From Pezizomycotina sp. ARF18 (lineage: Eukaryota > Ascomycota), in contig AZLU01000074.1 in assembly GCA_002224055.1 (NCBI GenBank), positions 36,233 to 100,232 on the forward strand: 64,000 nt of DNA. Reading direction: 5' to 3'. Position numbers and translations under genes: made by a program. Below are positions 1,761-64,000 of this stretch, one piece after another. Position 1 is the stretch's first letter; each line of letters begins with the position of its first letter. Under the pieces are notes generated by a model, which made no database searches, was not told the DNA's origin, and worked only from the letters and a program-made list of their open reading frames with translations.

Positions 1761-3275
1761 ATGGCCATGTATGCATGTAGAACCGTTCGAAAAAGGAGTC
1801 CTCTCCTCGCCAACAGCGTCGTTCCGAAGCATCGAGGGTAAATATTAAAAGTTGAAGCTTCGAAGGTTTCATATATCGACGGTAGAGGCGGCCTTCTCCT
1901 CCCGTCGCTTTGCCATTCGCACATACACTTGGACAAGTGTTACTTGCTCGACGCGGGCAAGCGCACGTAAAAGAAGGCGGTTTCAAAGAAGCCTTCGAAG
2001 GCACGAACGAGGCCAAGAAGCGTTTTGAGGAAGACGACTTGCTGGTACGAGGCAGGAGGCTATTAAAGGAGAGCGTGACTTGCGGCGTTACGGTAATGCG
2101 ATGCTATGCCGAAGTAGATCGGACCGTGGGGTTGAAGTGCTCAAGGCTGCCGAGCAGATTCAAGCGGAAGCGGGGAGGCGGTGTCTGCGACGTTCAATTA
2201 CTGGTGTGAAAGACCTAGCCGAATATAATCGAATTTATTGCATTGGGGATTATGTTAACGAGATAAAATCAACCTCCTCTACTCAATATATAAGGGAGTA
2301 GTTTTTGCGCAGGATCCGCTATTCTCTGGAGACGATTCTTCAAATCGCGAACTCATCCTCCAGGCCTCGAATCGAAGTCGGTTTCTGTGCTCGGTTCGAC
2401 GCCTTACGTGGAGGAAAACGACGAGCTGGTGAAAGAATATCGAGTGGGCCGTTAGTACGGGTGGGTGTCTCTTCCGAAGTTGAGATCGGTTGGTTGAAAT
2501 TCACAGCTGAGAGAGAAGGAAATTTTCGTTTAGCTATCAAACACGGCTTGCACCTCGACTTCCATCTTGACGACGTTCGCATATCCCTTGCCTCATGTCC
2601 AAAGCAAATAGGCTCTAAGACCATTCATAGTTTCATCTGCACAGAGCCCGCCGGCCGCTCGTCCACCGCGCTCTGGCGATTCTCAAGTCCAAAAGTGGAC
2701 CGAGATGAACCCGGGCCCGCACCGTGCAGCTGGGCCACTGCACCCGCCTCTCCCTCTTCGCGGGTGAAGAGCTCGAGGCGCTCCGCCGTGATGTCGGGGA
2801 CCTACCTGTACACTTTGCGGCGCTCCCGCGGTCGACGTGTACATGATGGCGCTCGCCGTTCCGGTGAGACTATGGAATTCGGAGGCCATCAAGATTCGGG
2901 CGCCAGGGGAACGATCGACATCGTATCGTGGGTGCGGGATTACGGCTTCGACTGCTCGCTTGCGGTAAACAATGTGGAAACGGCTTTACGCCTCACGGAT
3001 CTGCTGATCGTTAGGACTACTCACAAGAGACGGTGGGCCACCTGCAGAGAGGCGGCGAGGATGAATGTAGGCTGCTTATGGAGTCAGTTACGTGGAGAGC
3101 GAAAGCTGGGGTAGGAGTGTTGAACAGTGAAAGTGAAAATGCAAGCCTAAGGTCGCTTGATATTGGTATTGGGAATGAAGCGGACTTTGTCATCGTTGGT
3201 AGCGGTGAGAACAAAACGGTCCAGAGCGCTGTCTTCAGCGCCAGCTACGATAGGATACGATTAAAGATGGACTAA
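1761..3275 (+). CDS. Metal-dependent amidohydrolase (cytosine deaminase-like TIM barrel)
   Basis: A fungal metallo-dependent hydrolase of the amidohydrolase superfamily, probably deaminating or hydrolysing a cyclic amide; the substrate is unknown. The metal-binding HxH reads as HSHIHLDKCYLLD at 1914-1952. The next blocks are KEGGFKEAFE, LLKESVTCGVTVMR and AEVD (about 1970-2120), then CDVQLL, an intron of about 2204-2301, and FAQDPLFSGDD. GLHLDFHLD (about 2540-2570) is the second histidine cluster. GHCTRLSLFAGEE and GDLPVHFAALP (about 2740-2820), VYMMALAVPV and a VNNV-like motif follow. The end at 3275 is in the frame GIGNEADFVIVG. These blocks lie in different frames, so at least five one-base slips occur, for example T5 at the intron acceptor near 2302. 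The start is unresolved; ATG 1761 is the nearest candidate but is out of frame with the HxH block. Family call is firm, substrate open. Confidence 0.8.
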
Positions 3276-3596
3276 AAGTTGCGAGCCGGCGCGGTGAAGT
3301 TGATATAAGATGTAAGAGAAATTAGAGCTTCTCAAATAGTTGCATAAACTATTAATATCAAGCATTCGGAAAAGAGATTAACGCTTCTGGTGATATGCGA
3401 TTAATAGCACGAAGCTTGATTGATTGGGATATGAGTGCGCCATGCAAAAGGAACCTCTATTATTCTTGAGGGTATAAAACTAAGCCATTACATCTCCTAA
3501 ACGCCTTAACCGATCGAAAAAGGTTCACAGAAATAAATGCCCTTGTCGCCGAATGCCCGAGAAAGCTACTTGAAAGAAGTTTCCTTCGCTCATTAT
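3276..3596. other. Convergent intergenic spacer
   Basis: A spacer between the 3' ends of the amidohydrolase (+) and the OGFr-domain gene (-). Both transcripts should terminate here. I see no gene and no repeat. Confidence 0.5.
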
Positions 3597-4600
3597 TCAC
3601 CTAGTAGCAAGGGCAGCCCTGGCCTTCTCTGAGTTCTTAGCCCGCTTCAAGATCATCCTCTTCCGCCTGCTCGTCAGTTGCATCAGGGGGGATAAAGAGC
3701 GGCCTCTTTGCAGCCTGGTCCAGTAGACGAACGAGTCACCGCGGAAGCGCCTCTGAAGCCTCGTGTTTGCGTCAGACAGCAGCACTTCCTTTCTAAAGTC
3801 GTCGAGCGCTTTGTAGTAAGCCTCCGCCTCGATTCCCAGTCCAAGCAGGCGCAAGCTCCTGATGATGCGCGTGATCCTCATGTTGTTGTGCCCTCCCAGC
3901 CAGTCCAAGACTTTCTCTCCTCAAAATCGTATTGGGTGTGACGGTGACGGTGCGCTCGTTGTCCTTCATATGGATTCCTAGCGTCGTTGCTCTTGACGTT
4001 GACGTCGAATCCGTAGAACGACATCAATGCGCTGGAAGGCGCGGAACAGCTGGAGCGGTGCTCAGCGCTGGCTTGGAAGACGGCTATCGAACTCTCGTCG
4101 AGGACTGGACAGTCTGACCGGCGAAATAAGACTGCTCGGGAGCGGGAAGATGACTGTATGAGTTGTGCTGGCGCTCCAGGCGTTCGTCGTTCCACGAGAG
4201 AATTTGGTTGAGCGTGCGGCCGAGCGGGTCTTACCGCCGCCGAAGAAGCCGCGGAAATTAGGGAGGGAGTTGGGCTGGACGACAGTAGAGCCGTGCAGCC
4301 GGGTGGACATGTTCGCGCTCGCCATTTCCGCTTCCGCCTCCTCTTCGTCTTCTTCAATTATGTCCTCCAAGCTAGCTCCTCCTCGTCGTAGTCGTCGTCG
4401 TAGCCGTCAAAGTCAATGTCTAGATCGTCTTCTTCGAGTTTGCACCGTATTCCAGGTTATCTCCCTCGTCTTCTGCTTCCTCTCCTTCTTGTCTTCTTTC
4501 TCTTTCTCTTCTACCTTCTCTTCCTCCTTATTGCCCTTTTCTTTTTTGTCTTTCACGAAGTGTCTAAAAACGGATGGAAGCGAGTGAACTCGAGCTGTTA
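3597..4600 (-). CDS. Opioid growth factor receptor (OGFr)-domain protein
   Basis: A fungal protein with the OGFr conserved region, whose role in fungi is unknown. The order on the minus strand is an acidic and lysine-rich N-terminus (EEDDLDIDFDGYDDDYDEEE near 4375-4435), then NFRGFFGGGK, ILSWNDERLE and QHNSYSHL. The last two correspond to the family signature of a WxDe..LE motif followed by an HxYIQWLFP motif. PVLDESSIAVFQASAE and SFYGFDVN follow, then WLGGHNNMRITRIIRSL near 3870-3905, matching the domain's HNxLRITRILxSL motif. The C-terminus is basic. The blocks sit in three frames, so several one-base slips occur. I found no ATG upstream of the acidic region, so an upstream exon may be missing from this call. 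It lies tail-to-tail with the amidohydrolase. Confidence 0.75.
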
Positions 4601-5087: not shown

Positions 5088-5129
<42 letters not shown>

Positions 5130-13750: not shown

Positions 13751-15242
13751 ATGGTCTTCAACCTGGAGACGTGTGCACGTCCGAACATCCTGTCGCTGAA
13801 GCCGTACCGTTGCGCTCGGGAGTGAGTTTTCAACTTCCGCAATACTTTTCTTTCTATGCTTAGCTCTTTTGGAGCTACGATAGGCTACCCCCGCAATATT
13901 TGGAGCTCCAATTGACACAACTTTTTTTGTTGCTTATAGCGACTACAAGGACGACGGCACAAACATCCTCCTAGACGCGAACGAGAACGCGTACGGTCCT
14001 AGTCTTCCACTGGACGAGTATGGACGGCTGAAGAATACAGGAGGAGCTGGTGCAGGCCCTGCTGTAATGCAGACCTAAATCTCAAGGGCTTGCACCGATA
14101 CCCAGATCCGTACGTCAAATTGCCACCTTCTAAGCTCTATCATCTCTTTCATAAACAACCTCTTAAATTCAAAATTTTTGACCTTCTAACTTATACCCAA
14201 AGCATTGCGTGAAAATCAATTTCCAACTAGCACCAACACGATTTAAAGTCCCTCCTCTGCGAGCTCCGGAGACCTCCTTCGGCAGCCGAGAATTTTACCA
14301 CACCTCTTACGCCGGCAAACCTGTTCGTCGGCGTGGGCTCCGATGAGGCCATCGATGCTCTACTCCGGTGCTTTTGCGTCCCGGGGAGGGACAAGATCCT
14401 GACGTGCCCGCCGACGTACGGCATGTACTCCGTCTCCGCGCAGATCAACGACGTCGCCGTCGTACCCGTACCGCTGGACGTATCCTCGCCGAGCTTGTTC
14501 GACGTAGACATCCCCGCCGTAACCTCCGCTTTAGAAAACGATCCGACGATAAAGCTGGTCTACCTGTGTTCCCCCGGTAACCCAACGGGAAAATTAATCC
14601 CCGCGTCGACGGTCGAAGCCGTGCTGAAATTCGACAGTGGAACGGCATCGTCGTTCTGGACGAAGCGTACGTCGACTTTGCGGGGAAGGCGCTAGCCTTG
14701 CGTACCTGGTCAACTCGTACCCGAACTTGGTCGTCATGCAGACGCTTTCGAAGGCGTTCGGCTTGGCGGGGATAAGGCTCGGCGCGGCGTTCTGCTCCCC
14801 GCCCGTGGCACGGTTGCTGAACAACCTCAAGGCGCCGTACAACGTTTCCTCCGTGACGTCGCAGCTGGCGTCCGCGGCTCTATCCGAGGGTGGGTTATCG
14901 GTGCAGAGGGCGAAAGTGGGGAGCATATTAGAGCAGCGCAAGCGGATGGTGGAAGAGCTTCCCAAGATTCCTGGCGTAGGGAGTTTTTAGGCGGGTTCGA
15001 AGCGAACTTCTTGCTCGTTAGGATACTGGATGCTCCCAAGGAGCAAGGCGGAAACCGGACAATGGCGTTGCGAAGAAATGTTACGAGCGACTTGCGGAGG
15101 TTAGGGGAGTCGTCGTCAGGTTCAGGGAAATGAGTGGGCTGCAACGGCGCGCTGAGGATGAACCGTCGGCACGACGGAAGAGAACATGAGACTTCTGTCA
15201 GAGCTGAGGACCGTGCTTGCCGAGATCCACAGCAGAAAGTAG
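13751..15242 (+). CDS. HIS5: Histidinol-phosphate aminotransferase
   Basis: A pyridoxal-phosphate enzyme of histidine biosynthesis converting imidazole acetol-phosphate plus glutamate to histidinol-phosphate (EC 2.6.1.9), cytosolic. Exon 1 encodes NLETCARPNILSLKPYRCAR; an intron at 13822-13939 follows, then LLDANENAYGPS. A second intron runs 14110-14230 after LHRYPDP. The cofactor-binding blocks are FVGVGSDEAIDALLRCF, CPPTYGMYSVSA, LCSPGNPTGK, VVLDEAYVDF and TLSKAFGLAGIRLG, whose lysine (near 14750) is the expected Schiff-base residue. The enzyme ends ENMRLLSELRTVLAEIHSRK. At least five one-base slips occur, e.g. T5 near 14987, where one more T restores SFLGGFEANF. Size and block order match fungal His5. 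Confidence 0.95.
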
Positions 15243-16805
15243 ATAGTTAACTTTTTCATTATCATGGTGGAGTACGTTCTTATTTAGATATATATTCGTT
15301 TTGATAGCGAGTTATACATAGATCGAGCTATATAGGACTAATTCGGTATATGTCTAAGTAAAGTGCATGCATTCTCAGACGTCCTATCGTAGTAGTAGTA
15401 TCTTCGTGCACTTCAACTTTGTTCGAGTTGGAAGCTGTGATATTTTGCCGGACCATCGTCACCAGTTCAGCAGCATTGGTAAAGGCACCTAGTCTCATAC
15501 TTAACGGGAAAACGCCAAGGATAAGCACAATGCGAAATACTATATAAACCGTGGGAAGCTATATACCTTGGTGATGTATTTACAGGGGGGTGTTCATTAA
15601 CTGATATGAGGTGAGAGATGGAGAAAGACAAAAAAAAGGGAAAAGGATAAAGAAAGGAGGAAAAGAAGGGAAGAGGTCCCAAAAATGAGAAAAAACGAAG
15701 GCCAGAAATCAAAAGAGAAGCAGAAAAGAAAAGATAGAACAAAGGTCTTTATTGAATCATCTAGAACCAAATCTTGAAGCAGTTACCTAAGTATAGGAAA
15801 TAATTCGAATTCCAAGCCAAACCGCTGATTATCGAGAGAAAAAAACGAAAATGGTGCATAGGTGCATACTTCAGAAGGACAAAAAACCAAAACGAGAGGA
15901 CAACGGAAATGCTACGGTAAGCTGGAGAGGTCTGTCTTCATGGAAAGAGGAAGAAAGAAAATCAACGGAATTATAAGAGTAAAAGTAGAAGATATGAAAA
16001 CCCGGTTTTATTATTATTACGTCGAAAATAAAAAACAGAAAATTTTTGAAATAATAAAAAACAGAAAAGGATCGAAAAAAGAAGAAAAAGAAGAAAAAGA
16101 AAAGAAAACCTCGATGACCTTCTCGATGTACTAGTAAAACAGGACTTTGTTTTAGTTTTAGGAAAAAGAACAACTGATATTTCGCCTTCCTTGCAAAAGA
16201 CACTCCAACTAGAAAAAATAGAATGAAGAGAAAAAAAGAATCAACTAAGAGTACAAATCAGGTATCATTTTAAGGTAACGTTTGAGAGCGAAAGAGAAGT
16301 GCGCTGTAAACCTCCTTCCTTTTGAGACGTGATAGACTGGAAGGTGAGAATAAAGAAGTGAAAATGAATGATAAATGTGCGAAGTTTATGTGTGAAACGA
16401 TAATATGAGTACACTTTTGAATTAGGAAAAAAAAAAAAAAAAGGTATACCAGGAAGCTTTTATAAAAAACAAGGAGGGATGGAAAGAATTTTGGAAAAAA
16501 AAGGAAGATGGGGGAAATGTAGATTATCAACTCTTTACAATTGCTAGGTCGGTGGATTATATGTCGTGTCCAGAAAATTAAATGCTAGTATAAAGTCGGA
16601 TTGCTTTTAAAGCGATGGAAGCCAGCAAATCTCGAAAATTTTGAGTAGACATGAAGAAAGAGAAAAAATAATAATAATATGAAGAATGGTATGACTTGTC
16701 CCCATCGTGAGCACAGGAGGCCTACCATAAGCCTGCAGTATGGACGTACTCCTGTTGAGATGCTGTACCCCACCAGCTTTCTCTTTGGGCGAGTTGCCGG
16801 CCATG
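15243..16805. other. Convergent spacer, purine-rich
   Basis: A spacer between the 3' ends of HIS5 (+) and the J-protein gene (-). Plus-strand purine-rich stretches (AAAGGAAGAAAAGAAG-like, about 15620-15740 and 16070-16110) give low-complexity open frames in several frames. I see no family signature and call no gene. Confidence 0.5.
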
Positions 16806-19800: not shown

Positions 19801-20339
19801 TGGCGGCCTGAGCAGCCTGTGCGGCCTGCGCTTTGGCGAAATAAGCAGAGTGCGGTCCATTAGACTGGTTTGCTCTGGTCGACTGCGTCGGCGGCGAGGA
19901 TCTGTAAGTTGAAGAATACCCGTTGGAGGAGACATTTGTTGCGCGGTAAACAGCTCGCGATCGGTCGTAGACTCGTCTTCTCGTGGGATCGGTCAGGAGT
20001 TCGTGAGCGGCCTGGATAGATTGGAACTTGGTATTGAACTCGGCTTCCTTTCCGACGTTGCGATCAGGGTGGTAAAGAAGAGCTGCGAGATAATCCAAGG
20101 GAACAATGAGTATATCCATGCCAAGTAAAGAAGAGAATGGGAAAAGAAAAAAAAAGGAAAAGTAAACAGCTTAAGAGTAAAAAGAGCATCTAGATCAAAG
20201 AAGAGGGCAACATGGGAAAGACTCCAGTTGGGAGTGACGTACCTAACTTCTTGAACTGTTTCCGTATCTCATCAGGAGTAGCCGAAGGAGAGACACCGAG
20301 AATAGCATAGTAGTCTATGCTGGCATCCTCTTTGGGCAT
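16806..20339 (-). CDS. Long fungal J-protein (DnaJ domain plus C-terminal helical domain)
   Basis: An Hsp70 co-chaperone. The J domain is split by an intron (complement 20083-20242): exon 1 gives MPKEDASIDYYAILGVSP and IRKQFKKL, and exon 2 gives ALLYHPDRN (the HPD loop that contacts Hsp70), EFNTKFQSIQAAHELLTDP and RVYDRSRA. An alanine/glutamine-rich linker (QAAQAAQAAKEHAARAAQA) and about 800 residues of Ser/Pro-rich low-complexity sequence follow. A second intron lies at complement(18529-18603). The C-terminus recovers a helical block: YTKYSNQMQNYQTHWNQWNE, then LDGVASDLKSIDQALKDFED, WVAACQRHGVCLAAWKVY and a stop at 16806. That arrangement matches a Pezizomycotina family with an N-terminal J domain and a conserved C-terminal domain. 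Several one-base slips interrupt the middle and end. ATG 20339 is preferred over an in-frame upstream extension because it sits directly before the J domain. Confidence 0.85.
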
Positions 20340-22578
20340 GTTTGCTAGACTTTTCTCCTCAATTCGTCCTGGATGTCGCCGGATGCGACGTTGAGACACC
20401 TATGATTCTGTTCTGGCAGCCGTGATCGAGGTCGGGATACGAAACAAACGCCCTGACTAGAGTAATCCTTATGGGACAGAGACTTTTTGTCGTCGTCGTC
20501 GTTTCTGTGGACGTCGTTGTCGGTTTTTTGGTGTTTTGAAAATCCTTCCCGCCTGTGGGTTTTTTCCCACCGCTTTTTTCTTTCTTCAAGAAATAAATAA
20601 ATAAACCTCCCCTTCTGATCTGACCGAAAATTAAAAATAAAATAAAATAAAATAAAAAATAAAGCGGAGCTCGGCCAACTCTAGTAAGAAGAAGGCTATG
20701 GAAAACCTTCCTCGATATCTCGTTCTAAAAGGGCACTTTTGAGAAAATATAATATGGAAAAAACATCAAAATCGAAATCGAAAAAAGAGAATGAACTACT
20801 TAGTAGTAGTAATAAAGCAGTTAGCAGTTAGAACTTGTTTTTCTGCTCGAGCGAAAGTGATAACGGCCGTCTATTGGTGAACGTGTAGTTCTGAGTTGTT
20901 TCTGGCTGTCTGGTTGGTTGTTTGGACGACCTTCTTTCCCTGCCTGTATTTTTATTTTTCTGGGAATACTTAGAGAGTAAGTAAATCAATAAATAAAATA
21001 AAATAAATAATAAGAAATACTTGACGCCTGAGTGAAGAAGAGTGAACGCTTTGACAACCCTTTTTTTTTTTTTTTTTTTTTTTTTTCTCCTTTTATTATT
21101 TATTATAATTGTTTTTAATTATTATAATTATGTATTTTTATTTTATTTTATCCCCCTACTGCAGCTTCGAAAAGTAGTAAAGGAGATCTCACTTGCTGCT
21201 ACTCTTCTTAAACCCTTCAAAAAGGAAGAAAGGACAGACTTGAAAAAGTGCTTTCTTTTGAAAGGGAGGATATCTACTTAGTATTAGACTGCTCTTTTAT
21301 CTGAGTACCCTTCCTTCTTACCTTTGAAGTCTCTAAGAAGATCGAAAGCAAAAGCGATGAAAGAGAAGAAAGTAACTATAGGCCTTTCATTTTTTTTTTC
21401 TTTTTTTTTTTTTCTCTTCTCTTTTCAAACTCCAAGCCGCAGAGTACGAAGATTTGGCACCTCTTAATCTTATCAAAGGGTCTGCTCCCGATGTGAAGTA
21501 TGAAAGGTCTCCCATGGAAACGGAGGAACACACTACTTTAAGGTCATTTTCCCCTTGAAAAAGTGGAGAGACTAACGCCGAAAGAGGTAATTTAAGTTTG
21601 AATTTGCCAATAAAAAAAAAATAAAAAAAATAAAAAAAAAATAAAAAAAATAAAAAAAGGGACGACCCCCACTAGATACCGTCTAACTACCGGAATACTT
21701 AGCCATGGAGTTTCTTTGCGAACTAACTAAGGCTCTCTCAAGTTTATACTTCTCTGCTTGATATATATCAATCAATACACTTTGCAGACGCGTCAGATTT
21801 ATAGATATATATATATATATATATTCTAAGGCATATATGGTGTCATATATACTTAATTGTAGATACAGCAGTATTCCATGTTTTACGATTTGAGCACCGT
21901 TTGTGGGTTATTGTGGAAGGTATTTAATAATCGTATCATTGTGCGTTGGAGCCGAAACCAGAATAATATACTTGATTATTTGATCAATCACATTTAATAA
22001 TAATGATCGAGTGATATTAAACGGGGCCTTTGTGTGAGAAGGAGCAACAAGGAGATCAAACGAATCAATGAAATACTATTTATACAATATAATTGTAGAA
22101 TGAATGGGGAATGACGGTAAGAGTTTGGTATCCCATCTACATGCTTGTCTGCTAATAATAAAAGTACTTCTACCGAGCGATGAGATAAAATACAGGATAC
22201 GCAGTGATACACGGTGAGAAAAGTAGTGAGAAAAGTGATGAGAAAAAGACAAGTGCTGAAACCAGTCAATGCAAGAAATTTCGAGAAGGGCAATATGGCA
22301 AAAAGAATAAAACAACGAAGAAGTCAAAGGTAATAGAAGAGGGAGGAATAAAACGAGCATAGACCATATACTAGTACAATCGTTCACTCACTGCCTATAT
22401 TTACAAAAAAAAAACCAAGAGCAATTGAAGGAATGCGTTTCTCGTGCAAAGATGATCCAGCGAACTCTTTGGGGTGAAGAATTAAATAAATAAAAGGAAA
22501 GAAAAGATAAATAAATAAGTGAATAAAATAAAAGCAAAGGAAGGGAGGACGGGAGACAAATACACGTATAATTACTCG
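20340..22578. other. AT-rich spacer with pentamer and A/T-tract repeats
   Basis: No gene supported. It contains AAAAT pentamer repeats (about 20634-20660), T26 near 21061-21086, a block of ATAAAAAAA-type repeats (about 21608-21657), an AT dinucleotide run near 21806-21824 and purine-rich stretches. It spans the J-protein promoter and the 3' flank of the SS18-like gene. Confidence 0.5.
21608..21657. repeat. Interrupted A-tract repeat
   Basis: Tandem units of seven to nine A separated by single T, alternating in length. Intergenic. Confidence 0.85.
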
Positions 22579-23176
22579 TCATCCGCCTCCTGGATTGCCC
22601 ATGGCCCAGTTGCCAGTAAGATTCATAGGCCACGCCATATCTCCCCCACCAGCTAACATGTTGTCGAGACCCGCATTTCCCATGCCCATCCCTGCCATAC
22701 CATTGCACCCAGCCCGCCGCCAGCACCGGGCATTGCTCTCTGTCCCATGGCGCCTTGGAGCTGCTGCGCCTGTTGCAGCGCAGCTTGTTGCTGCTGAATT
22801 TGCCTCGCTTGCGCCTGTGCCTGTGCGACTTGTTGTAGATAAAAATTCGGGGTAAACGCTTGTGGTGCTTGGGTGTGAGCGGTGATGTTCTGTGCGTGGG
22901 CTGCTTGAGCTTGCGTGAGAGCGCGCTGCTGTTGCTGCTGTTGTTGCTGCAAATCTGTTGCTGCTGTAGTTGCTGGAGCTGTTGAAATTGCTGGGGGGTG
23001 AGTTGTAGCTGCTGAGGATGAAGTTGTTGCTGAAGTAGCTGTTGTTGTAACTGCTGTTGCTGTTGCTGGAGCTGGTGCGCATTCTGGGGATGCTGTTGCT
23101 GTTGCTGCTGTTGCTGCTGTTGCCTTAATTGAGCCTGTTGCAGCGCCGCTGCTTGCTGCTGCTGCAGTTGGGCCGC

Positions 23177-23207
<31 letters not shown>

Positions 23208-26735: not shown

Positions 26736-28803
<2,068 letters not shown>

Positions 28804-36242: not shown

Positions 36243-36269
36243 CCCCCCCCCCCAAAAAAAAAAAAAAAA
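36243..36269. repeat. C11A16 junction
   Basis: Eleven C followed directly by sixteen A, downstream of the coiled-coil gene. On the other strand it is T16G11, the same type as the run at 12495. Confidence 0.9.
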
Positions 36270-38493: not shown

Positions 38494-38496
<3 letters not shown>

Positions 38497-38538
<42 letters not shown>

Positions 38539-38561
38539 TCTCTCTCCCTCTCCCTCTCTCC
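38497..38561. repeat. CT microsatellite
   Basis: An uninterrupted CT run of about 38 bases, then imperfect CTCTCC units to about 38561. It is flanked by further pyrimidine tracts. Confidence 0.9.
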
Positions 38562-39045: not shown

Positions 39046-39070
39046 ATATATATATATATATATATATATA
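39046..39070. repeat. AT dinucleotide repeat
   Basis: About twelve AT units in an AT-rich leader region upstream of the gene starting at 39449. Confidence 0.9.
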
Positions 39071-39448
39071 AACCGCCACGGCCCACCAGAATTTTATAAA
39101 ATAAATAAAAGAGGACGGAAAGAGAAGAAAGAAGAATATTTTATTTTTTTTATTTATTTTTATTAGAGCTTCAAAACCTCCAACGTCTGCTAGACTCAGC
39201 CCCGACTACTGCACTTCGACAAACGATGACAATAATTTGACTACCCTCGTTCGCGTTCTGTCTTCTCTGCATCGGAGGCTATAAACTGAACGGCTTTTCT
39301 CTAATGCAGGTTCGCGAAGATAGCAACATTATTGTTTGAACAGATATACCTGCTACCAGTCGCTCCCGAAGAAGCACCACCATATTAACATTAATTTAAA
39401 AAAAAAAAAGATTTTTTTTTTTTGGACGAGGGTCGACAGACGGCCACT

Positions 39449-45142: not shown

Positions 45143-47286
45143 TCAGTCTATCATATCCACCACCTCGACATTCTCCCAGATCTTGCCATTGGAATTACAG
45201 GCACCTACGTCGGGTTTCCATGAGCCCTCAAGACTCTCTCTCAAGATGACTCTGGCATATTTTTGAACCTTTCCGGGGTTCGCAGCAGCTTTTGAGGCTT
45301 TTAATGTGGTAAGAACCGAAGTAGTCGCTTCCTGGGCTTTTGTACGGGATTTCACGGGGCTCTTTAGTGGCGGTCTTGGAGTTTGTCTCGATGCAAGCTT
45401 GGGTGGTAGGTGTATGTTTTCTTGTAGATTTTGCGGAATCTTAGTAAGGCTATCATTTCTCCGCTTGCTTGGAGAAGTTGACCTTGTTAAGGCAGGTTTG
45501 GTCTGCCTCATGCTCTTGGATGGCGAGGGCAAGGAGGATGAGGCATTTGGCTTCGTCTGAATATCCCCTAAGACATCGACCTTGTTGTTGCTATAGTAGT
45601 TCGTAATCACGTTTGACTGAGCGGGCAGCTTCTTCGTGGTAGCTTTTTTCGTGCCGCCTTTTTTTGCTTGCTGTTTGTCGAGTTTCGCTTGCTCCTTTGC
45701 TACTTTCGAATCTTTCCACTTTAGGAATTTATATGTAGCCCCCACTTCTACCCATTCGCGTAGAATCCATACGCTGTGAATTTCTCGGGATCATATATGG
45801 TGTCTTTCTTAGTAGCTTCGGGATCTTCAGTCGGCCCCACAGGTTCCTCGTCCTCGTCGTCGGAGACTTCAACCTGTTGGGAAGAGATCAGCTCTGAGGT
45901 TTTGGCTGCGGGTTCTTGATCAGGATCAAATTCCAGCTTTACGACATCTACCGGCCGGAACTTGATGCGTAGTTCCTGCTGATTATCCGTAGATTTGTTC
46001 TCCCTGACGAGCGCCACTTCGTGAATGAGATCTTCGACACCATCGGCCTTCGATGCTAGCAGGTAAGAGAGGTACGCGGGCGAGAATGTAGCAATGAATT
46101 TCCCGGTCCCCGTCCAGCCAAAATGCTTGACGGTATATTCTCTCAGCAAACGTACGTTCGGAGGGCGTCCCCATTCCATTTCAGGGATCGTCGTCGAGAC
46201 CAGTGGATTGGTATAGTATCTCAGGATCTCCCTGTTGGGGAAAGATTCGGGATATTAATAACGCTAGACCTTGCTTTGAATATCTTTTCCTCGTTGTTTC
46301 TTATAGAGTTATTCAATCTCTCTCGCCAGGCGGCCAGCGAGGCCCCGTTATCGTTCCTTCGGCAGGCGCGCAGTAAATCTTCGCCGTAGCCGTGTCTTGC
46401 CGCTCCAGCTGCATACGCAATCCCGCATTTCGATACCCCCTCAGTGTCGTAATCTCCGCCCCGCAGTAACGCAATTAGAATCATTCCATCGGTCGTAATG
46501 CGTTGCTCCTTCTTGATAGACTGAAGATTGTGGACGGTGACATGCGTTGGAATCGATTTCTCCTTCTCCTTGGCGCATTTTTTCAGCGTCGTGCGGCTTC
46601 CAAAAAGTAATGTGTCTACATCTTCAGACCACACAGCATCCACGATCCCCTCTTTTGCAGATGTGCGCATTCTGCTTCAGCCTCACCGGGCGCCGTATAC
46701 TGAGGAAATTTGAACAGTGATACTAGCTGTCTAAACAATAACAAGTTCCTTCCTTCGCGCTTGGAGATCCGCTTGTCCCGCTTGAAATCTGGGCGATCGG
46801 GACCATCGAAGATGAAAACGGCCTGTATATTGAGCTTCAACAGATTCACCATCCGGTAGTATACTGTGTTTGGCAAGAGAAAATTAGAACATAAAGCGAT
46901 ATGAGCATTAAGGAGTCGCTGCTGAATGAAAGTACGTACGGGCGCGAAGATCCGAGTTTCGACCAACATTACTACTACCTTGGCGAGCTATTGTCGTGGA
47001 GAAAAAGATCAGTTTATAGGATCCCGTTTTTTTTTTTTTTTAAAAAAAAAAGGTTTGGTTGTGGGGAGGCGGGTCGTTACCTGTAAAGTTCTGCGACTGG
47101 AACGACCATATTGAAGCGTCTATTGCGACACGCAACGGCACATAGAACTTGTTGTAATGGGTCGCCGAGAGTTTGGCGAGGGCGACCTTTTCTCCCGGTC
47201 CGATTTCTTTGTAGAGGCTAGGGAAAGGAGGTTTAGCGGCATTCCACAAAGAAACGATCGAGAACCACTTACTCCTTGACGCCCAT
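45143..47286 (-). CDS. GEN1/Yen1-type Holliday junction resolvase (XPG/FEN family)
   Basis: A structure-specific nuclease of homologous recombination. Exon 1 is 14 nt (MGVKD, 47286-47273); a 55-nt intron (47218-47272) leads to LYKEIGPGEKVALAKLSATH and VPLRVAIDASIWSFQSQNFT (first catalytic Asp). After an intron containing T15A10, GRNSDLRA continues after another intron into YYRMVNLLKLNIQAVFIFDG PDRPDFKRDKR. GEAEAECAHLQKRG and VDAVWSEDVDTLLFG give the acidic active-site cluster. LLRGGDYDTEGVSKCGIAYA is the helix-hairpin region with the GEN1-style GVSKCG. The C-terminal part holds a chromodomain-like TVKHFGWTGTGKFIATF region and a basic tail (SPSKRRNDSL) ending VEVVDMID. One more G in GGGG near 46665 joins QKRG to IVDAVW. 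Length and the long C-terminal region favour GEN1 over FEN1. Confidence 0.9.
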
Positions 47287-47899: not shown

Positions 47900-48516
47900 T
47901 TACTCATAACCCTTCTTGTAGCCACTGGTCTCGTAGAAAGTGTCCAGCTCCGTAACTATCTGATCCAACGACGCCAACCACGCATTGAGCTTGGTGTCCA
48001 GATGCTCCTGGGATGCTGGTTCGCCACCCTCAGGGTCTGCCTTTAGCTTTTCGTAGAGATCCTTGCGGTACGGGCACGCTTTCATCGCCAAAGCGAATAC
48101 CCCTTAACGACAAAGTTGTGGAAGGGCTTCAGCGTCTGCCCGTAGGACTCCGTAAACGCTGCGCTGAGCTCCTTGCTTTGGTCCGCCTGGCTTGCCTCGA
48201 GCGCCTTGCAAGTAAAACTGAGACCGCGCAGGAGCCACAGGAGGCCCTGCGTGGCTGTGTGCTTCTTCTCGGCCATTTCGTTCGTAACGAGGAGCTCGAG
48301 GGTTGATGATTTGTCCGGAGCAGCTGCGTATCTCTTCTCGACCTTGGCGATATTGCCGTTCATGTCGCTCGTGACGGGACCAAAAGCTGAGCTGTTTAAG
48401 AGCCCAAAGATGCCGACCAGACCCTTTGACGCCTCTAAAAATTTCACAGTGTCGACTCCAGCTTCCGACCGAGGGACGTCAGCGAACGACGTTACAGTAT
48501 CCAGATATGGTGCCAT
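47900..48516 (-). CDS. Glycolipid transfer protein (GLTP/HET-C2 family)
   Basis: A small cytosolic all-helical protein that moves glycosphingolipids between membranes; fungal relatives include the incompatibility protein HET-C2. ATG 48516 begins MAPYLDTVTSFADVP. The glycolipid-binding residues appear in FGPVTSDMNGNIAKVE (the D..N..K motif) and LLWLLRGLSF (stacking Trp). The His is in KPFHNFVVKG; ALAMKACPYRKDLYEKLK follows. It ends LDTFYETSGYKKGYE at 47900. One frame slip near 48107: adding a G to the GGGG run joins VVKG to VFALAMKACPY. Length about 205 residues, as in the family. No introns. It is head-to-head with SOF1. Confidence 0.93.
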
Positions 48517-48895
48517 CTTTTTTCTTGTGCGAGAGAGGACTGCGTCGCGAGATATCTGAGAGTCGATATAAGCTTGAGAATGGAATGTAAACAGATATTG
48601 TTTTCTCCTTTTTTGAAAGACCAATAGAGTATAAAGAGTGTGTCCTGTGAAACGAATATCACCCAGCCTTTTGTGTAACCGTGGGTCCTTCAAGGGTTGA
48701 GGCCAGAAATAAGCTTTTGGGCCATTTACGGTATAACTTGCGCCAAGATAAAAGCAAGGGAGGCGGGCAAAAAAAAAAAAAAAAAATTCTGCGATTATAA
48801 AAAAATTTTTTTAGCACGTTTAAGCCGCAAAGAGTTCATATTTTTCTTTTTCTTATCCTCAAAGAAAGGCCGTTGTCAAAAACATAACATTCGCA
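48517..48895. promoter_or_regulatory. Divergent GLTP / SOF1 intergenic promoter
   Basis: 379 bp separate the two start codons, with genes pointing outward. It must hold both core promoters unless their transcription starts overlap. It contains A16 near 48770-48785 and T-rich stretches, but no motif I can name with confidence. Confidence 0.6.
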
Positions 48896-50406
48896 ATGGT
48901 TCGTCACCCATTCCAAGTATCAAGGCAAATCAGGACGTTTTGCTTGTATCTCTGTGCTAATAAAGATCAATTGATTATGTGGTGTTCTTTGATTAGAAAG
49001 TTAAAGCTCTCTCCCGGTCCTCGTCGACATACGTCCCAGTCGGGACAACAGCGACACCGTTGCCGCGGAATCTCGATCCCGCCCTGCACCCTTTCGAAAA
49101 AGCTCGCGAATACACCCGAGCTCTTAACGCGACCAAGTTGGAGCGGGTATTTGCAAAACCGTTCCTCGCACAGCTAGGCAACGGCCATGTCGACGGTGTT
49201 TACTCGATGTGCACGGATCCTCGGAGCCTGAACCGGGTCGCCAGCGGTTCCGGGGATGGCATCGTAAAGATGTGGGATCTGACCGATCACAGTGAAATCT
49301 ACGAGACGAAGGCGCACGACGGGAACGTAAAGGATATATGCTACATCGCGGACGGAAGGCTACTAACGTGCGCCAGCGACCGGACGGTCAAGCTGTGGGA
49401 GCACCGCAGCTCCAAGGCCGACCATGCCGACACAGACGGACTGGTCTCGACGTATCTCGGAGCGGAGTCTTTCAACTCGCTTTCCCAGCACAGATCCGAG
49501 CCCAAGTTCGCTACGGCTTCGTCGCAGATCGACGTATGGGATATCACGAGGAGTAAGCCGGTAACGTCGCTTCGCTGGGCAATGACACAGTAAACACCGT
49601 GCGGTTCAATCAGGTCGAGACCCCTATTATTGCTTCGGCTGGGAACGACCGGACGTTGATCCTCTACGATTTACGGTCATCGTCGCCGTTGCAGAAGCTG
49701 ATAACCAACCTCAAGACGAACTGTATATGCTGGAATCCGATGGAGGCGTACAATTTTGCGGCTGGGAATGAAGACCACAACACTTATATATTTGACATGA
49801 GAAATTTAAAACGAGCGCTGAACGTCCTTAAAGACCACGTTGACGCCGTAATGGACGTAGCCTATAGTCCTACCGGTGAAGAAATCGTAACGGGTAGCTA
49901 CGATCGCACGGTGAGAATCTATAGGGCTAAGGAAGGAGGCCACTCGAGAGACGTTTATCACACCAAACGAATGCAAAGGTAAACTCGAAGATCCAGTCCC
50001 TTCATCACCCTGTAGTCATTCCCAGTGCCTTTTTGCTAACTTCCAATACAGAGTGTTCTGTACTCGTTTCACGTCCGATGCGAAGTATATTCTCTCGGGA
50101 TCGGATGACGGTAATATCAGGCTTTGGAGGGCGGTGGCGTGGGAAAGATCGCATATAAGGAGCAATGCGGAACAAGTTTCCCTGGAATACAACGAAGCCT
50201 TGAAGCAAAGGTACAAGCATATGCCGGAGATAAAACGTATACTCAGGCACCGACATCTCCCCGCGGTTGTCAAGAAGGCTGGTGAAATCAAAAAGATTGA
50301 GCTTGCGAGCAGGAAACGCAAGGATGAAAATAGACGGAAACACGAAAAGAAAAGATCGAAGAGAATACCCGAGAGAGAGAAAATGGTTTACGCCTTACAA
50401 GAGTAG
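48896..50406 (+). CDS. SOF1: Sof1-like WD40 protein of the SSU processome
   Basis: A nucleolar factor for 18S rRNA maturation (DCAF13 in animals). Exon 1 is just the ATG (48896-48898); a 98-nt intron (48899-48996, GTTCGT..ATTAG) joins it in phase to KVKALSRSSSTYVPVG. LDPALHPFEKAREYTRALNA, TKLERVFAKPF and GHVDGVYSM are typical Sof1. WD repeats follow: VASGSGDGIVKMWDL, DGRLLTCASDRTVKLWEH, ATASSQIDVWDI, IIASAGNDRTLILYDL, NFAAGNEDHNTYIFDM, EEIVTGSYDRTVRIYR and, after an intron at 49979-50051, YILSGSDDGNIRLWRA. The Sof1 tail is KRILRHRHLPAVVKKAGEIK KIELASRKRK, then a basic end. One slip near 49586 (GGG for GGGG) breaks GNDTVNTVRFN. Confidence 0.96.
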
Positions 50407-52497: not shown

Positions 52498-55400
52498 ATG
52501 AGCACGCGAGACAAGAACGTGGACATACCTCCTAGGTTGTTCGAGCAGCTCTCCCAATTGCCGGGATATACTTTTGATGTCACAAGACCGGTTTATCATT
52601 CGGTACGCTCTTTCGCGGCGTTTTTTTTTTTTTTCTTTTTTTTTCTGTTCATCGTCCTCCTTGACCTTCCACCTCGCGTCTTACTATTTGCCGTATTCTC
52701 AGTCTAATATCCATCTGGTCTTATTTGAATATCTAGAGCTATGATAACTGGCACGTATACGGTACACGCCACATACCCTAGCCGACGTCCCGTCATCATC
52801 GTCGGCACAGGGGATATCGCAAAATGGCCGACCGTCTTCCGTTACAAACCTTACTTATATGGCTGGGGTCAAATCGCCTGGGCTGTCGCAAAACCAGCAC
52901 AGGAACGTTTTTAGCCCCGTTGAGAATCCCTCTAGCCCAGTAGATGAAGAAGATCCTTCTGAGTGCAGTATCCCGGTTGTTGCTCGAATATCGTCTCACA
53001 CGCTACGGATAGAACGGGAGTTTCAACTGGCATCGAGGCTACAGAAGTTGGGAGACCCTGACTGCTTGCGAATCGTGCGTCCCATCGACCTTATTCACCT
53101 TTCAGCGTCGGGCTTGGTGGCATCTGTTTTTGCGTCTCCCGGAGTTAATTCTCTGCAAGAGTTCTTTGGGCAACTTGCCAGCAAAAAATATTTCTTTTTA
53201 AATGGAGAAATAGACCAGCGTCAGTCCGCGGCAACCTTGCCTGGAGAGGAGCAACTCATGCCCCTTCATCTATTCCTAACTTTCGCCATAGGTATATATC
53301 GATTCAATCTGCTTTGTACTTCTATTTTCTTAAAATTCTCTCGCTGTCGAGCATAACTTCTAATACTTATGATGAATACAATTTTTTGACGCAATTTAGG
53401 TGCCTGTGAATGCTTGGAGCTTCTTCACCATAGCTCTAACACGGTTCATGGTGAACTACGAGAAGACGCCTTCCATTTCTCTCGCAAAGACGGAGCAGTA
53501 AGGCTCCTGAACTTTGGATCTGGCCCCCGCGCGTTTGAAAACGGCCTGAACTCGCACGTTTGGAGCGAACTAAGCAAGCAATCTGGGATCGAGGACAGGC
53601 TCATGTATATTGCGCCGGAACAAACAGGGAGGATGGCACATAACCCCGATACCAGAACTGATATCTACAGCTTGGGAGTTCTATTTTACATCCTTCTATC
53701 GAGGAAGCGCCCGTTTGAGTCGACCGACCCAATGGAAATTGTTCAATGTGTTTTATCAAAGAAACTGCCGCCAATTCACACAGTTCGTATGGACGTTCCT
53801 GAAATATTGACCGATATCATCCACAAGATGACATCCAAACGGGTGGAGAAGCGGTATTCTTCTGCAACTGGGCTGAAGCACGACATGAAGTTTGTTCAAT
53901 CATGTCTCGGTACGGGCAAGATGGCGGAATTGAAGAACTACAAACTTGGAACGAAAGATATCGTTTCATTTTTCAGGTTACCATCGGTAATGCTCGGTAG
54001 AGAAGAGTACTTCACAAAGATCGTCAAGATTATAGCTTCCATGTCTAGGCGACATGCCCGCGCAGCTGCGTCACGTCACGGAGTTTTTGACATCAATCCC
54101 GAAGCGCAGTCCTCCAATAGCACCAGCGCTGGCATCTTTGGAGAGCCGGTGGACTCTGGGAGCATGAGCTCGGGCGAAGTAAGCAAAATGGGGCCACTAT
54201 CGAAGGATGATTCATCCACAAATGATTCGTATTCAGAGCTGTTATCATCTACAGGAGGCTCCTCTCGTAAGGAATCCGATGGATTCGGCCCCGGTTCTAT
54301 GGCAATACCTCACCTGTCGAAAGATCCAAGCTCGAGCACCTTTAACATGTCTGAGCGCTCCAAGAGCACGACTACATCAGGAAACTCTTCCCAGCTGGTG
54401 GAACAGGTTGCTTACAAGCGTCGCGGCCGGTGTGAGGTTATTGCAATCTCGGGACCAGCGGGAGTCGGAAAGTCTTCATTGGTTGCTTCAGTGCAGACCG
54501 AGGCACGGCGGCGAGGCTGTTTCGCGAGCGCCAAGTTTGATCGCGCTAGGCAGCGACCTTTCGACGCGATACTCAAGGTCATATCGTCCATTTTCAAGCA
54601 GATGCTTACTGAAAGCGAGGAAATCATTGGGGAACTCAGTTATAACGTCCGAGCATTCCTCAAACCGCAGTGGGTCAGCCTGCACAGGGCTTTAGATCTG
54701 CCCGACCTTTCGAACGTTTTCCATCACGATGCTGATATGCCATTTTCCGGACATGTTACTTATTCGTCGAGGGGTTCGACTGATACTGAAACAAACGATG
54801 ATTTTCCCTCGCCCACACCGGACTCTTCGGCATCTCCTGCAGATATCATGCGAATCGGCGGCAACAAAATGCGGTTTCGTTCCATGCTCGTGGAGCTTCT
54901 CCGTATGCTGTCGAAAGCGAAGCTTCTATGCCTCTGTCTTGATGACCTGCAGTTCGCAGATCAAGAAAGTTTGGATCTTCTTTCAGCAATAGTCACTTCC
55001 CGGAACACCCTAGTCTTGATTGTTACTTATAGGGAGGACGAGATGGATATTGCAAAAGTACGGTCCGTGCTTTCCTCAGACCGGTCAAATTTAACTCACA
55101 TTGCTCTCAAGGAGCTGGGAGAAGACGATGTGCGGGAATATTTAGCACAAACCTTGCATCAAACTAAGGACGCTGTCCGTCCACTGGCCGCTATCCTGAT
55201 GGAGAAAACCAAGGTAATCCGTTCTACATGCGAGAAATGTTGCATACCTGCTTCCTTCAAGGTGGTATAACATACGACTGGAAGAGCTCTGCATGGACAT
55301 ATGATTTTGATTTCATCTTCAAATTGTTTGAATCCGGAGAATACCAAAGTGATGCTAGCCGGAACGACCTCATTATCAAGCGCTTTCAGGATATTTCCAA

Positions 55401-58400
55401 TAAGGATGTCCGAATGTTGTTAGCTTGGGCATCGCTGCTTGGTTCAACCTTCTCATTCCGATTTGTTAAACGGCTTTTCTACGGCAAACACCTTAAACAA
55501 ATCATCCCAGAAGACCTTGACCTGCCTACAAGAACCCAGGAAAGCGTCAAGAACCCGGTGGATGATGTCGTGAATGCGTTGCAGTATATTTTGGAGATCG
55601 GACTTATTGTTCCCACTGAAAATGAGGACGTTTTCCGGTACGAACTGTTTAAGCCTTCGACTCCCCGCAGAAGAACTATGAAGGGGAAACTCCTTATCAT
55701 TTAGTAATGTATCCAATGTTAACTTGATATTGCTTGTAGATTCGCGCATGACAGATACTTGCACGCCGCAAGTGGGCTGCAAGCCATGGGAAATCGCTCG
55801 CACATGCATCTTGCGATTTCACTCTTGATGATAGAGGAACAGAGGCAGGGTCGAAGTACTGATTGGCAAACCGAATCATTTGGCAGCTATAACATCGCAT
55901 ACCATCTATGTGAATCTTCGGACATTTTAAGGCCAAGTTCCAAAGCGCTACCCCTATCGAAAAATCCTCATCAACGCTGCTCGCAAAGCAGCAGAGAATG
56001 GCGCCCACTTCGCTGCCATAGATTTCAACATGACAGCCATCAACCTCCTGCAGGAGAATCCATGGGGCGCTGACGAAAATCCTGACTCGTTCTACGAAGA
56101 GACTTTGGACCTTTACAATCGAACGGCGGAAAGTTTATGGTATCAGAATGGTCAACGTCTTACTGAAATTGTTAACCTTGCTAAGGTTGTCATGCAGAAC
56201 GCAAGGAATCCAACGGATAAAGTTACCTGTTGGATACTTTACAACCGCGTCCTCCTGCAAACGCGGAAGTTCAAAGAAGCTCTTAGTTCCACTCTGGAGC
56301 TCTTACGCATGCTCGATATTGACGTCTCTGGTGATTGGACGTGGGAAGATTGTGATTCCGAGTATGCGATTCTCAAAACAAGGATACTGGAGCTACAGCA
56401 AGATAAAATTGCGTCAATATCCATCAACGAAGACCCTACCTGTCTCGCGCTGGGGTCTGTCTTGTTTGAAGCGACCATCGTCGCATACATACTATCGATG
56501 GAACTTTTTTACCGTTTAGTCCTTCGTATGGTGCGCATGCATTTAGACCAAGGAGCTTACACGGAAACGGGAATCGCTTATGTATATCTCGGGAGTTTGG
56601 CTCTGCAACGTTATAACGACCAATTTTCGCCTCAGAGCTTGCCGAGGTAGGTACTCGGTGTTTAGATACCTATGGGGACATTCAGACAAATGGACGGGGC
56701 ACCGTGCTCTACATGGTTTTCCTGAGCCACCTGAAAGTCCACGTCTCGGTTGCTGCCGCTGGGTTGAACACTGCTTTGGAATACAATATTGCAGCCGGCG
56801 ATAGAATGTTTGCGTCTTTTACCCTTGCGAACACCGCAGCTTATAAATTCTATGCCTCTGAGGATCTCCGTGAAGTTGATGCGTACTGCAAGTATGCAAT
56901 GGACGAGCTATCCGCGTGGTCCGAAGAACCAGATCCAGGAATTATTTTGATCTCCGTTCAGCAAACAGTAAAGGCACTAATGGGAAAAACTAACATCGAG
57001 GATCCCAAAGAAGTCCTCAGCGATGAAGCTCACGACTCCACAAAATTCATCGCTTTGGTGAAGAGTCTGCTCGACGATCCGGACTTCGCTCTCAACACAT
57101 ACAACACGTTCCGGATCATGGTTCTATATCTATTTGGGCATTACAACGAAGCCGTGGAGATAGGAGTGCTTGTATTAAGAAGATCGATCTGACCCCTGCG
57201 CAAAGAGATACACGGCTTTTACTCTTCTACTACTCGCTATCTCTGATTTCCAAGATAAGAGAGAACCCGGACCTTGCGGACGCGACTTCAGCGAAACGCT
57301 ACAGAAGATCAGGTACTACAAGGGGTGCATCGAAGCATGGACTGGGACATCCGACGTAAACTATCGGGCATGGATCGACATTCTCAGGGCAGAAATTCAT
57401 GATGTTGAAGGTAACTATTTTGAGGCAGCGAGGGTTTATGAATAGCTCTCGACGCTTGTCAACAAGGCGGATTTGCTCTGGAAGAAGCACTCACGTACGA
57501 AGTCGCTGGCGAATTTTATATCAGAAGAGGAATCAAGCGAGCGTCTCAGAACTTCTCAAAGAAGCCGCAACGACTTACACGCAAGTGGAGCATCAGCGAA
57601 GGCCGATCAGCTACGAGCGAGGCATGGAAAGTCATTGAGAAATTCAAACACGCGCTCTCGAGATGTAGGGTGTCAGACTGACTTCCATGTCCTTCATCAA
57701 GACAATAATGTCGATCAATTCCGTATGGAGCAAGAACCTACCTTCAGGGCCTCGGTGAAGCCTGGATACCTCCTCAGAGAGACGATAGCGTGATGTTGGA
57801 GACCCCAAGGTCGTCGCAAACACGTTGCTCAGTCCGATAACCCTTGATACGCTTGATCTCAACGCTATTATCACTTCAATCGCTGATATCGTCAGAGGTC
57901 GAGCTAGACACCCTGTTGGCGAAGATGTGCCAGATTGTGCTGGATAACATGGAAGCCAGGCGGACTCGGTTAGTATCATTGTCAAAGAAGAAGAGCAGTT
58001 CTTGGTATCCGCCGTCGGTGACATCGATAATGGGGTTAAAAACACATCAACCTGGTCTGCCGCTTACCTCTAGCGACGTTAACGTATCGGCTGCCATAAT
58101 TTTGTACATCGTTCGTACTCACGAGACCTTGTTCATTCATAACGTCGCTGAAGATGAACGGTTTTCGAATACGTCCGAAGAATGGAACAATAATCACCCT
58201 CAAGGGAAGTCGGTGATCGCCATGCCTATAGTCAATAATAGGTCGGAGCTGGTCGGCGTCGTGTACTTAGAGGGCGCAGTCAATGCCTTCACTGATAGAA
58301 ACTTAGTTGTACTCTCCTATCTCACGTCTCAGATCGGTATCAGCATCACGAATGCGCTCCTATTCGCCAGTGTCAAGGCAGTTTCTCGAACAAACTACGC

Positions 58401-60152
58401 TATGATAGAATCCCTGAATAACGCCCTGGCTAAAGCCCAAGAGTCTAAGGAACGGGCGAAAGCAGCACGGGAAGAAGCCATACGTATGATGAAATTGAAG
58501 GAAGAGGCCTCGAGGGCGAAGTCGAATTTTTAGCGAATATTTCTCACGAAATTAGAACTCCGCTCAGTGGCGTCGTCGGCATCTGCGAGCTTTTGCGAAG
58601 CACCGAGCTGACGACCGAGCAAAGCGAAATGACCGAGAGTATGAGGAAATGCGCTGACACTCTCCTTACGGTAATAAACGACATTTTGGATTACAGCAAA
58701 ATCGAAGCTGGCAAAAATGAAGTTCTTCAATGTTCCTTTTTGCCTGTGGGACAATATTCACGAAGTAGTAAGGGCTCTGTCGTATGCGAACCTAGAAAGG
58801 AATGTAAAAGTTGTCGAGAAATTGGACATTCCCAAGCAACTGGTTCTAGGCGATCCTGCCCGTATTCACCAGGTATTGATGAACCTTCTCAGCAATGCCT
58901 TCAAGTTTTGCAACGAAGGATTTATTCGTGTGAATGCTAGAAAGGATGACGAAGATGAGGAGTCTATTACATATACAGTATCCGTTGCAGATACTGCATT
59001 GGAATAGACAAGGAGACGCTTGCGTTATTGTTCATGCCATTCTCACAGGCTGATTCGTCTACTGGAAAACGCTTTGTGGAACTGGACTCGGTCTCAGTAT
59101 ATGCAAGAGCTTGATAGAAAGCATGGGAGGCACGATAAGCATGACGAGCGAGTTGGCAAAGGAACAACCGTTTTTTCAAACATCAAATTCCAGAAGGCAC
59201 CAACGAATGCGGCTCCTCATGATAATACTCTAAACCATTGGATCCGGATCCGATGGAGCAGTACAATAGGACTGCAAACCAAGCGCCGGACGACGAGAAC
59301 GAAAATTCATTCTGGGCGAAGCACAAAGCAAATTCCTCGCTCACTGCCGCGCAAAGATCTGAAAATACTACTAGTGGAGGATAATTCCATTAACCAGAAG
59401 ATTGCTCTGTCCTTCATAAGGAAGTTAAAGTTCAACGTTGATGCTGTGGACAATGGGCAAACAGGCTGTGGATACTTTGAGGAAACATGCGAAGGAAAGG
59501 AAGCCATACCACCTGGTTCTAATGGACATTATGAATGCCGGTTATGGATGGCTATACGGCTTGCAAGACTTTAAGGAGCGATGATGTGCCGGAGGTAAAA
59601 AATGTTTTGGTCATAGCGATGACTGGTGAGGATCTCTCGTTCCCCTGATATTTACAGTGTATTTTTTTCAAATTCTATTGGAATGCTTCTAACTCGGGCT
59701 TACTAGCATCCGCCATCCGTGTGATCGAGAACGCTGCTTGGACGCAGGAATGAACGACTATTGTAAGTAATATGGATGTCCCTACTCATAGCTATCGAAA
59801 AACCCTCGCTTCTAACGAATCACGATAGTGGCGAAACCTGTCCGAGCTGCCGTTCTGAAAAACATGCTAGAAAAGTATTTGGAACGGCCGGAAACCCGAA
59901 CGCCACTGAGGCCGAGAAATTTGCGGAAGACTCTAAAGTACGACTGGCAGCTAAGGATAGCATCATGGCTGCCGAGAATTCATCCAAGTCCTCCCAAACG
60001 GCCTCCGACGACGAACAAGTACTGCCTATGTCTCCAGAGCCCGATTCTGATCACAAAATACTCAATGATCCGATGTCACGACATTGGAAGATAAAGCCTC
60101 GGCTAGTGATAAAGCAAAGCCTATAGAATCTCCCACGCGCCAGCCCAAATAA
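52498..60152 (+). CDS. Group X hybrid histidine kinase (Chk1/Mak2-type)
   Basis: A sensor of the two-component relay feeding stress MAP kinase signalling. It starts MSTRDKNVDIPPRLFEQL; an intron (52603-52736) leads to SYDNWHVYGTRHI. A Ser/Thr kinase-like domain follows (YIAPEQTGRMAHNPDTRTDI, YSLGVLFYILL); its HGELRED and LLNFGSG replace HRD and DFG, so it is probably inactive. An AAA-like ATPase has Walker A GPAGVGKSS (about 54452-54478) and CLCLDDLQFAD. A helical TPR-like region spans about 55200-57650. A GAF domain lies at about 57860-58380. HisKA has NISHEIRTPLSG with the phospho-His at 58544. HATPase has HQVLMNLLSNAFKF and a GTGLGLSICKSL box. The receiver has ILLVEDNSINQKIA and VLMDI (phospho-Asp). 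Introns include 53292-53399, 55638-55739, about 59624-59705 and about 59762-59828. About fifteen frame slips occur. The end is at 60126 or, in the neighbouring frame, 60152. Confidence 0.93.
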
Positions 60153-62687: not shown

Positions 62688-63355
62688 TATAAATGTGATC
62701 TTTCGGTATATTAAGTAAATAGTTATGGTTTAATGAGCGGTGACAGAAGAAACACTTTGTTATATTATATCAAGCTTAAACTCATTACGTATTATCTTTG
62801 CAAAGCAGGTGCCACTATTGGCACGAAAATATGAATAGCATATAATAATAAATACTATTATCTGATAAAATAGAGCTCTCTATCTTCGTGCACGAGGAAT
62901 GGCGAAGATTGATACCGATGACCCCACTTAGCACTGCTAGCAGGAGAAATGACTTTATATCTCTTTTTATTATCATATAGATACCAATATGCATCGTGTT
63001 CAAAGCCTTGGAGGTGTTTTTGCCTTGTACGGAGTACGTTCGTTGAGTTTTTATTATTTTATCTAGTGCGCGCTTATCGTACAAGCGCGCCAAGCGATCA
63101 AAAAGTAAAAAAAATAAAAAAAGAGATCTGCTTTTGGATGGGGCTAAGAATTTAAGATAAAGCTTCCAGTCAGAACCTTACAAATTCACACCACCAAACT
63201 CAACGAAAACGCGTGGCTCCCTCAATACCGCGCACATTCCTCCCTCCTTGCTGCAATATCAAGATACGAAGCCCGAGCAAGCCTGAGCTTAGAGTGCCTT
63301 TCATTTCCCGTTCTTTATATACACCCTACTAGAGTTGCACACAGAATCAGCAAGC
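62688..63355. other. Intergenic spacer before RPN6
   Basis: An AT-rich spacer containing the SDR 3' flank and the RPN6 promoter. I see no gene; a minus-strand open frame at 62815-63093 has no signature. Confidence 0.5.
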
Positions 63356-64000
63356 ATGCCGTCGCGATACGAAGAAGCGAAGGCTTTAACCAAAACGGAC
63401 CCCATCAAGGCCGAAGACATTTACAAGGAGATCCTGGCCGAGAAGCCTGGCACGAACGAAGCCGCCATGAGAGAATACGAGCTGGTACTGATGGACCTGG
63501 GGTCTCTCTATCGCGATTATCGTACGGATGTCTAGCGAGAGGCAAAGAAAAGAATTTTGTAGTCATACGATTGCTTGATCGAGAGGCTGACTATGAGAAA
63601 AGCAAAACCAACGAGCTAGCGGATCTGATCATGAAAAGTCGTTCGGTCATGTCGTCCTTTGCGAAGGCAAAGACTGCCAAAATTGGTGCGCAGATTCCCA
63701 CACTGACGAATATTTAAACAGCTTGTAGTTTCTTACTGACTAACCCCGCTACGACTGCTTTTGCTCTTGTTTCCGCACCTTGCCTCAGTCCGTCAACTTA
63801 TCGACTCTTCTCTGGAATACCCGACACCGTCGACATACAAATCACTGTCACAAAGACATGTATCGAATGGGCCGTCTCGGAACGTCGATCTTCCTCCGCC
63901 AGAACCTCGAAACCAGGCTCGTTGGTCTGTACCTTCAGAAGAGCTCTACCAGGAAGCTCTCGCCCTTATAAATTACCTTCTGAAGGAACTGAAGCGGCTT
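63356..64000 (+). CDS. RPN6: 26S proteasome lid subunit Rpn6 (partial, runs off the window)
   Basis: N-terminal part of the PSMD11/Rpn6 lid subunit, a PCI-domain scaffold that clamps the lid to the core particle. ATG 63356 gives MPSRYEEAKALTKTDPIKAE, DIYKEILAEKPG and YELVLMDLGSLYRDY. The sequence then breaks; an intron of about 63518-63609 is likely before KTNELADLIMKSRSVMSSFA KAKTAKI. A second intron ends in CTCAG at 63787, followed by VRQLIDSF, DTVDIQITVTKTCIEWAVSE, RRSFLRQNLETRLVGLYLQ and, in the next frame, EALALINYLLKELKRL at the window edge. At least two slips occur. The PCI domain lies beyond the window. Confidence 0.93.

Follow-up and report, generated by a model that had tools for sequence, protein, structure and literature searches.

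The window analysed here, a stretch of 64,000 nucleotides at G000:C74:36233-100232 in an assembly of 46,361,250 bases and 408 contigs, carries genes that are fungal in appearance. It contains no N over its whole length, ARAGORN found no tRNA in it, and none of it matched an Rfam family at the gathering score. A search of positions 20001-40000 against the whole genome did not find a second copy and returned only short matches, the longest of 167 bases. Introns exist in the window genes besides the frame breaks that are described here.

In the SOF1 gene (48997-50403, forward strand) the frame changes once, by −1, between 49557 and 49590. The piece at 48997-49590 corresponds to residues 2-194 of the solved Sof1 chain 5oql_d, and the overlapping piece at 49557-49979, which lies in another frame, corresponds to residues 198-328 of the same chain. 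A later frame change near 49980 looks, when read by eye, like an ordinary intron. On the reverse strand, the gene for a GLTP-domain protein (47903-48810) has one −1 frame change near 48100, and the GLTP profile is matched at positions 1-126 in one frame and at 127-146 in the next, the second match being weak (E 0.0017, under the family cut-off). The GEN1 resolvase gene (45146-46987, reverse strand) consists of four overlapping pieces with three −1 frame changes. There, XPG_I is split over overlapping pieces in different frames (profile positions 2-23, E 6.9e-5, just below the cut-off, and then 20-89, E 1.2e-14), GEN1_C is matched at 1-79 in the third piece, and no Pfam family matches the fourth.

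The gene for the ribosomal protein eL27 (29600-30000, reverse strand) falls into three overlapping pieces that tile chain 7olc_LZ at residues 22-42, 40-117 and 108-132; the middle piece matches strongly and the first and third weakly (E 0.42 and E 0.0042), the best match of the first piece being to 5it7_ZZ (E 0.0028). The histidinol-phosphate aminotransferase gene HIS5 (13884-15247, forward strand) is split over several frames, with Aminotran_1_2 matched at 45-174 and at 202-293 in different frames and with four successive piece pairs in which every shift is −1. A weak alignment of this gene to E. coli HisC (40% identity) required two −1 changes, two +2 changes (equal in frame to −1), two +1 changes and two stops. 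For these five genes, the frame changes proposed by a first-pass annotation, made from the letters and their open reading frames, are thus borne out by the protein and profile matches.

Further candidate breaks lie in three other genes. At 27156-27553 on the forward strand, overlapping open pieces shifted by −1, called UGM-like after the gene name given in that annotation, showed no Pfam match at E 0.1 for either piece. A hybrid histidine kinase (57841-58937, forward strand) has GAF in one piece and HisKA in the next, overlapping one, with a frame shift of −1 between the two; the join was read by eye. At the start of RPN6 (63148-63714, forward strand), RPN6_N was matched only at 47-76 of 117, and this early end of the match would suit a break without proving one.

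The annotation had gone further and held that almost every conserved gene of the window is broken, which is too broad a statement: SOF1, GLTP, GEN1, eL27 and HIS5 do continue across abutting pieces in different frames, but two domain-bearing stretches are open throughout, one of 626 amino acids with Pkinase and AAA_16 matches (53390-55267, forward strand) and one of 520 amino acids with a DIL domain (41527-43086, reverse strand). Two other regions are repetitive. The reverse strand at 22388-24406 holds three overlapping open frames rich in Gln, Ser, Asn or Thr repeats, where one CAG-like repeat stretch gives a different amino-acid repeat in each frame; because that stretch is repetitive in every frame, composition alone cannot tell the frame there. 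On the forward strand at 33345-34313, a coiled motif (EKVTEKALEIILREV, HTEKAMENILREV) recurs in the open pieces.

To describe the direction of the breaks, we used 13 piece pairs that were hand-picked, rather than randomly sampled, from the genes named in the first-pass annotation. In 12 of these 13 pairs the shift was −1, which equals one missing base, and in the remaining pair, the second eL27 join, it was +1. The annotation had also tied most breaks to short homopolymers. The run was present as described at five of nine listed sites (T5 at 2302-2306, T5 at 14984-14988, A7 at 31228-31234, AAA at 27440-27442 and T5 at 58527-58531), whereas details were off at the other four. The GGGG given at 48107 in the GLTP gene is a run of four at 48100-48103; close to the AAAA given at about 39491 lie an A4 (39482-39485) and an A3 (39489-39491); around the GGG given at about 49586 in SOF1 the runs are limited to GGG (49577-49579) and AAA (49592-49594); and for the GGGG given at about 46665 in GEN1 no run of at least three lies within 8 bases. 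Because runs of at least three are so common that 68% of window positions have one within 8 bases, a single nearby run proves little, and we dropped proximity to a run as proof of a loss in favour of comparisons between rDNA units and between 5S rRNA copies. The run-length spectrum of the window was likewise set aside as unsuited to a test for single-base loss; long runs are not truncated in it. Very long runs (A41, T39 and G16) are preserved, so that the contraction is a loss of single bases and not a truncation of long runs. As a separate observation, the window has an unusual wealth of long A/T runs (A41, A31, T39 and T26) and the G16 run, far above a first-order model.

Elsewhere in the genome, a family search for chaperonins returned 33 matches at eight loci on seven contigs, some of which abut in different frames, for example on contigs C24 and C53, and an HSP70 locus on contig C49 appeared as seven successive, mostly overlapping matches. 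Using a frame-aware protein-to-DNA aligner that allows introns, we found 7 and 13 frame changes in two HSP70 loci, a density of several per kilobase, and 6 in one F1-alpha locus. Of these 26 changes, 25 were in the −1 direction, comprising 11, 6 and 6 single missing bases and two changes scored as two extra bases, which is equal in frame; the sole exception was a loss of two bases. No stop occurred in the aligned codons of these three loci. As a control, the E. coli DnaK query aligned to the intact E. coli hscA gene gave no frame changes and no introns. The aligner penalizes a missing and an extra base equally, and because an extra base still gains codon score, its bias, if any, is towards extra bases. 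Three alignments were left out of the 26, namely an F1-beta reference on the F1-alpha locus (27% identity, four −1 changes), HIS5 against E. coli HisC, and the one chaperonin locus of the eight that was aligned (C139, against GroEL, 25% identity, two −1 changes and one +1 change). With HIS5 and C139 included, 31 of 35 changes were in the −1 direction.

The 79.7-kb contig C189 carries tandem rDNA units about 10.87 kb apart, six of which we compared over one common stretch of about 4.1 kb with an interior unit as the reference. The unit at the contig end was far worse than the others: in a pairwise comparison over 4,063 aligned bases it showed 52 deletions, 8 insertions and 2 substitutions, compared with 3, 4, 3 and 14 indels and at most one substitution each in the four other units. 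The unit u6 had 8 deletions and 6 insertions. An earlier multiple alignment had given 45 deletions, 6 insertions and 24 substitutions for the end unit; because 2 suffice in the pairwise alignment, we attribute those 24 substitutions to gaps that were placed wrongly. Single-base losses in the end unit rose with run length, from 3 of 1,889 runs of one to 15 of 622, 6 of 154, 10 of 66 and 3 of 22 runs of two, three, four and five, respectively (Fisher p 1.7e-15 for runs of one against runs of 2-7), and losses in the rDNA fell in runs of all four bases. The 18S match of the end unit had 35 deletions, 5 insertions and 2 substitutions, leaving it a net 36 bases shorter, while the 18S of another unit equalled the reference over 2,137 bases. 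Within an rDNA array the units as a rule hardly differ, and gradual decay would be expected to produce many substitutions; the simplest account of these differences is therefore error in the sequence. In two units, a group I intron match directly follows the 18S match (L067:8293-8572 and L071:894-1173); judging from the usual 18S end motif, which lies downstream of the intron, its likely position is within the 3′-terminal part of the 18S gene.

The 5S rRNA genes gave the same kind of comparison on a smaller scale. Of 15 matches in the genome, 10 were counted in two groups, one of six near-identical copies and one consisting of L013, L017, L019 and L018. Among the six near-identical copies, three were the same and the other three had lost 2, 1 and 3 single bases, and all six losses fell in runs of 2-4 with no substitution (last base excluded). 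A CCC run was one base short in both L017 and L019, the latter also having one additional A, and the more diverged copy L018 showed 4 losses and 3 substitutions. L016, which lies outside both counted groups, differed from L009 by 2 substitutions and 1 gap. Five of the 15 matches (L012, L014, L016, L018 and L019) lie within 12 kb in both orientations (G000:C36:173881-186019), and this cluster contains more than one sequence type.

Taken together, these results make it very probable that the window, like the assembly as a whole, still contains consensus errors from a long-read assembly with no polishing or too little of it. Indels far outnumber substitutions (60 against 2 in the rDNA end unit and 6 against 0 in the six 5S copies), deletions outnumber insertions (52 against 8 in the end unit), the loss rises with homopolymer length, and coding and non-coding sequences are struck alike. 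The losses in rRNA genes, which are never translated, are the decisive part of the case. The opposing observations are the preserved A41, T39 and G16 runs, the 8 of 60 end-unit indels that are insertions, and the open stretches of 520 and 626 codons. The first-pass reading of assembly contraction errors, as opposed to gene decay, is therefore supported across the genome, where we see mostly single-base deletions that rise with run length, few substitutions, and rRNA among the sequences hit. Its claim that a base is missing every time has to be softened, because some indels are insertions; with 12 of 13 window pairs and 25 of 26 changes elsewhere at −1, the direction is strongly but not wholly one-sided.

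In the proposed mechanism, reads would disagree on the count of equal bases in a row and the consensus would then drop one, a loss that is commoner the longer the run but begins with runs of two. The platform would have been single-molecule long-read sequencing, low depth may lie behind the worse places, and accurate reads would be expected to reveal the missing bases. PMC12007338 describes the errors of long-read drafts as false deletions in the main, associated with homopolymers of 2-8 bases. The present assembly resembles the drafts in that account in its excess of false deletions over insertions, its short homopolymers and its genes split into open pieces, but it differs from the small, mainly bacterial genomes treated there: it is fungal, measures 46 Mb, and has a density of several frame changes for each kilobase of the HSP70 loci.

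The first-pass annotation had left the choice between unpolished long reads and pyrosequencing, and the two do not fare equally. In favour of contraction errors of a pyrosequencing assembly, this technique too is known for homopolymer indels. However, pyrosequencing (454) reads are shorter than about 1 kb and are unable to resolve 10.9-kb tandem repeats, whereas the tandem units of about 10.87 kb are resolved within one contig of 79.7 kb. Since losses are also present in runs of only two (15 of 622), we regard pyrosequencing as a very unlikely source, and long reads as the one that fits.

A mixed case is also very unlikely, in which, alongside the errors of assembly, a few of the frame changes in protein-coding genes would be real and bridged by −1 ribosomal frameshifting in this fungus; the present data cannot separate one true frameshift site from many false ones. 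As a general cause, genome-wide programmed −1 frameshifting or insertion editing of mRNA has a negligible probability, in spite of a strikingly uniform direction (25 of 26 and 12 of 13) that recalls the Euplotes ciliates. In Euplotes, programmed frameshifting is genome-wide, +1 and limited to translation. As there, many essential genes are split over frames in one direction, but here the direction is −1 and the same losses are present in 5S, 18S and other rDNA, where translation has no role, so that this mechanism does not work as a general explanation; the affected runs include all four bases, and the HSP70 loci would need several such events per kilobase.

Real gene decay, with pseudogenes that lost bases by replication slippage, is just as improbable, although slippage too alters homopolymers and, in the sequence as it stands, the frames really are open-ended: it fits badly with breaks in essential genes, with eL27 and the middle SOF1 piece each matching only themselves in genome searches (the latter at E 1e-20), with aligned codons free of stops in the two HSP70 loci and F1-alpha (the 2 stops in HIS5 belonging to a weak alignment), and with near-identical rRNA copies that differ by indels almost without substitutions. 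Decay would be expected to bring substitutions and stops along with the indels and to strike a dispensable or duplicated gene.

Residual consensus errors of a long-read assembly thus amount to a warning about the assembly record rather than a discovery; as an artefact they are of low biological interest, but they are relevant to anyone who uses the assembly. Until the assembly is polished, it is no safe basis for reporting pseudogenes, lost genes, odd exon joins or split proteins, and any further result from the window that depends on broken frames is to be discounted. The comparison of 5S copies and rDNA units inside one assembly is a simple, read-free test that can be used for other suspect assemblies. 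For the fungus itself, the seemingly broken genes of the window are almost certainly whole in the living organism, and what we describe is a problem of sequence quality and not of biology.
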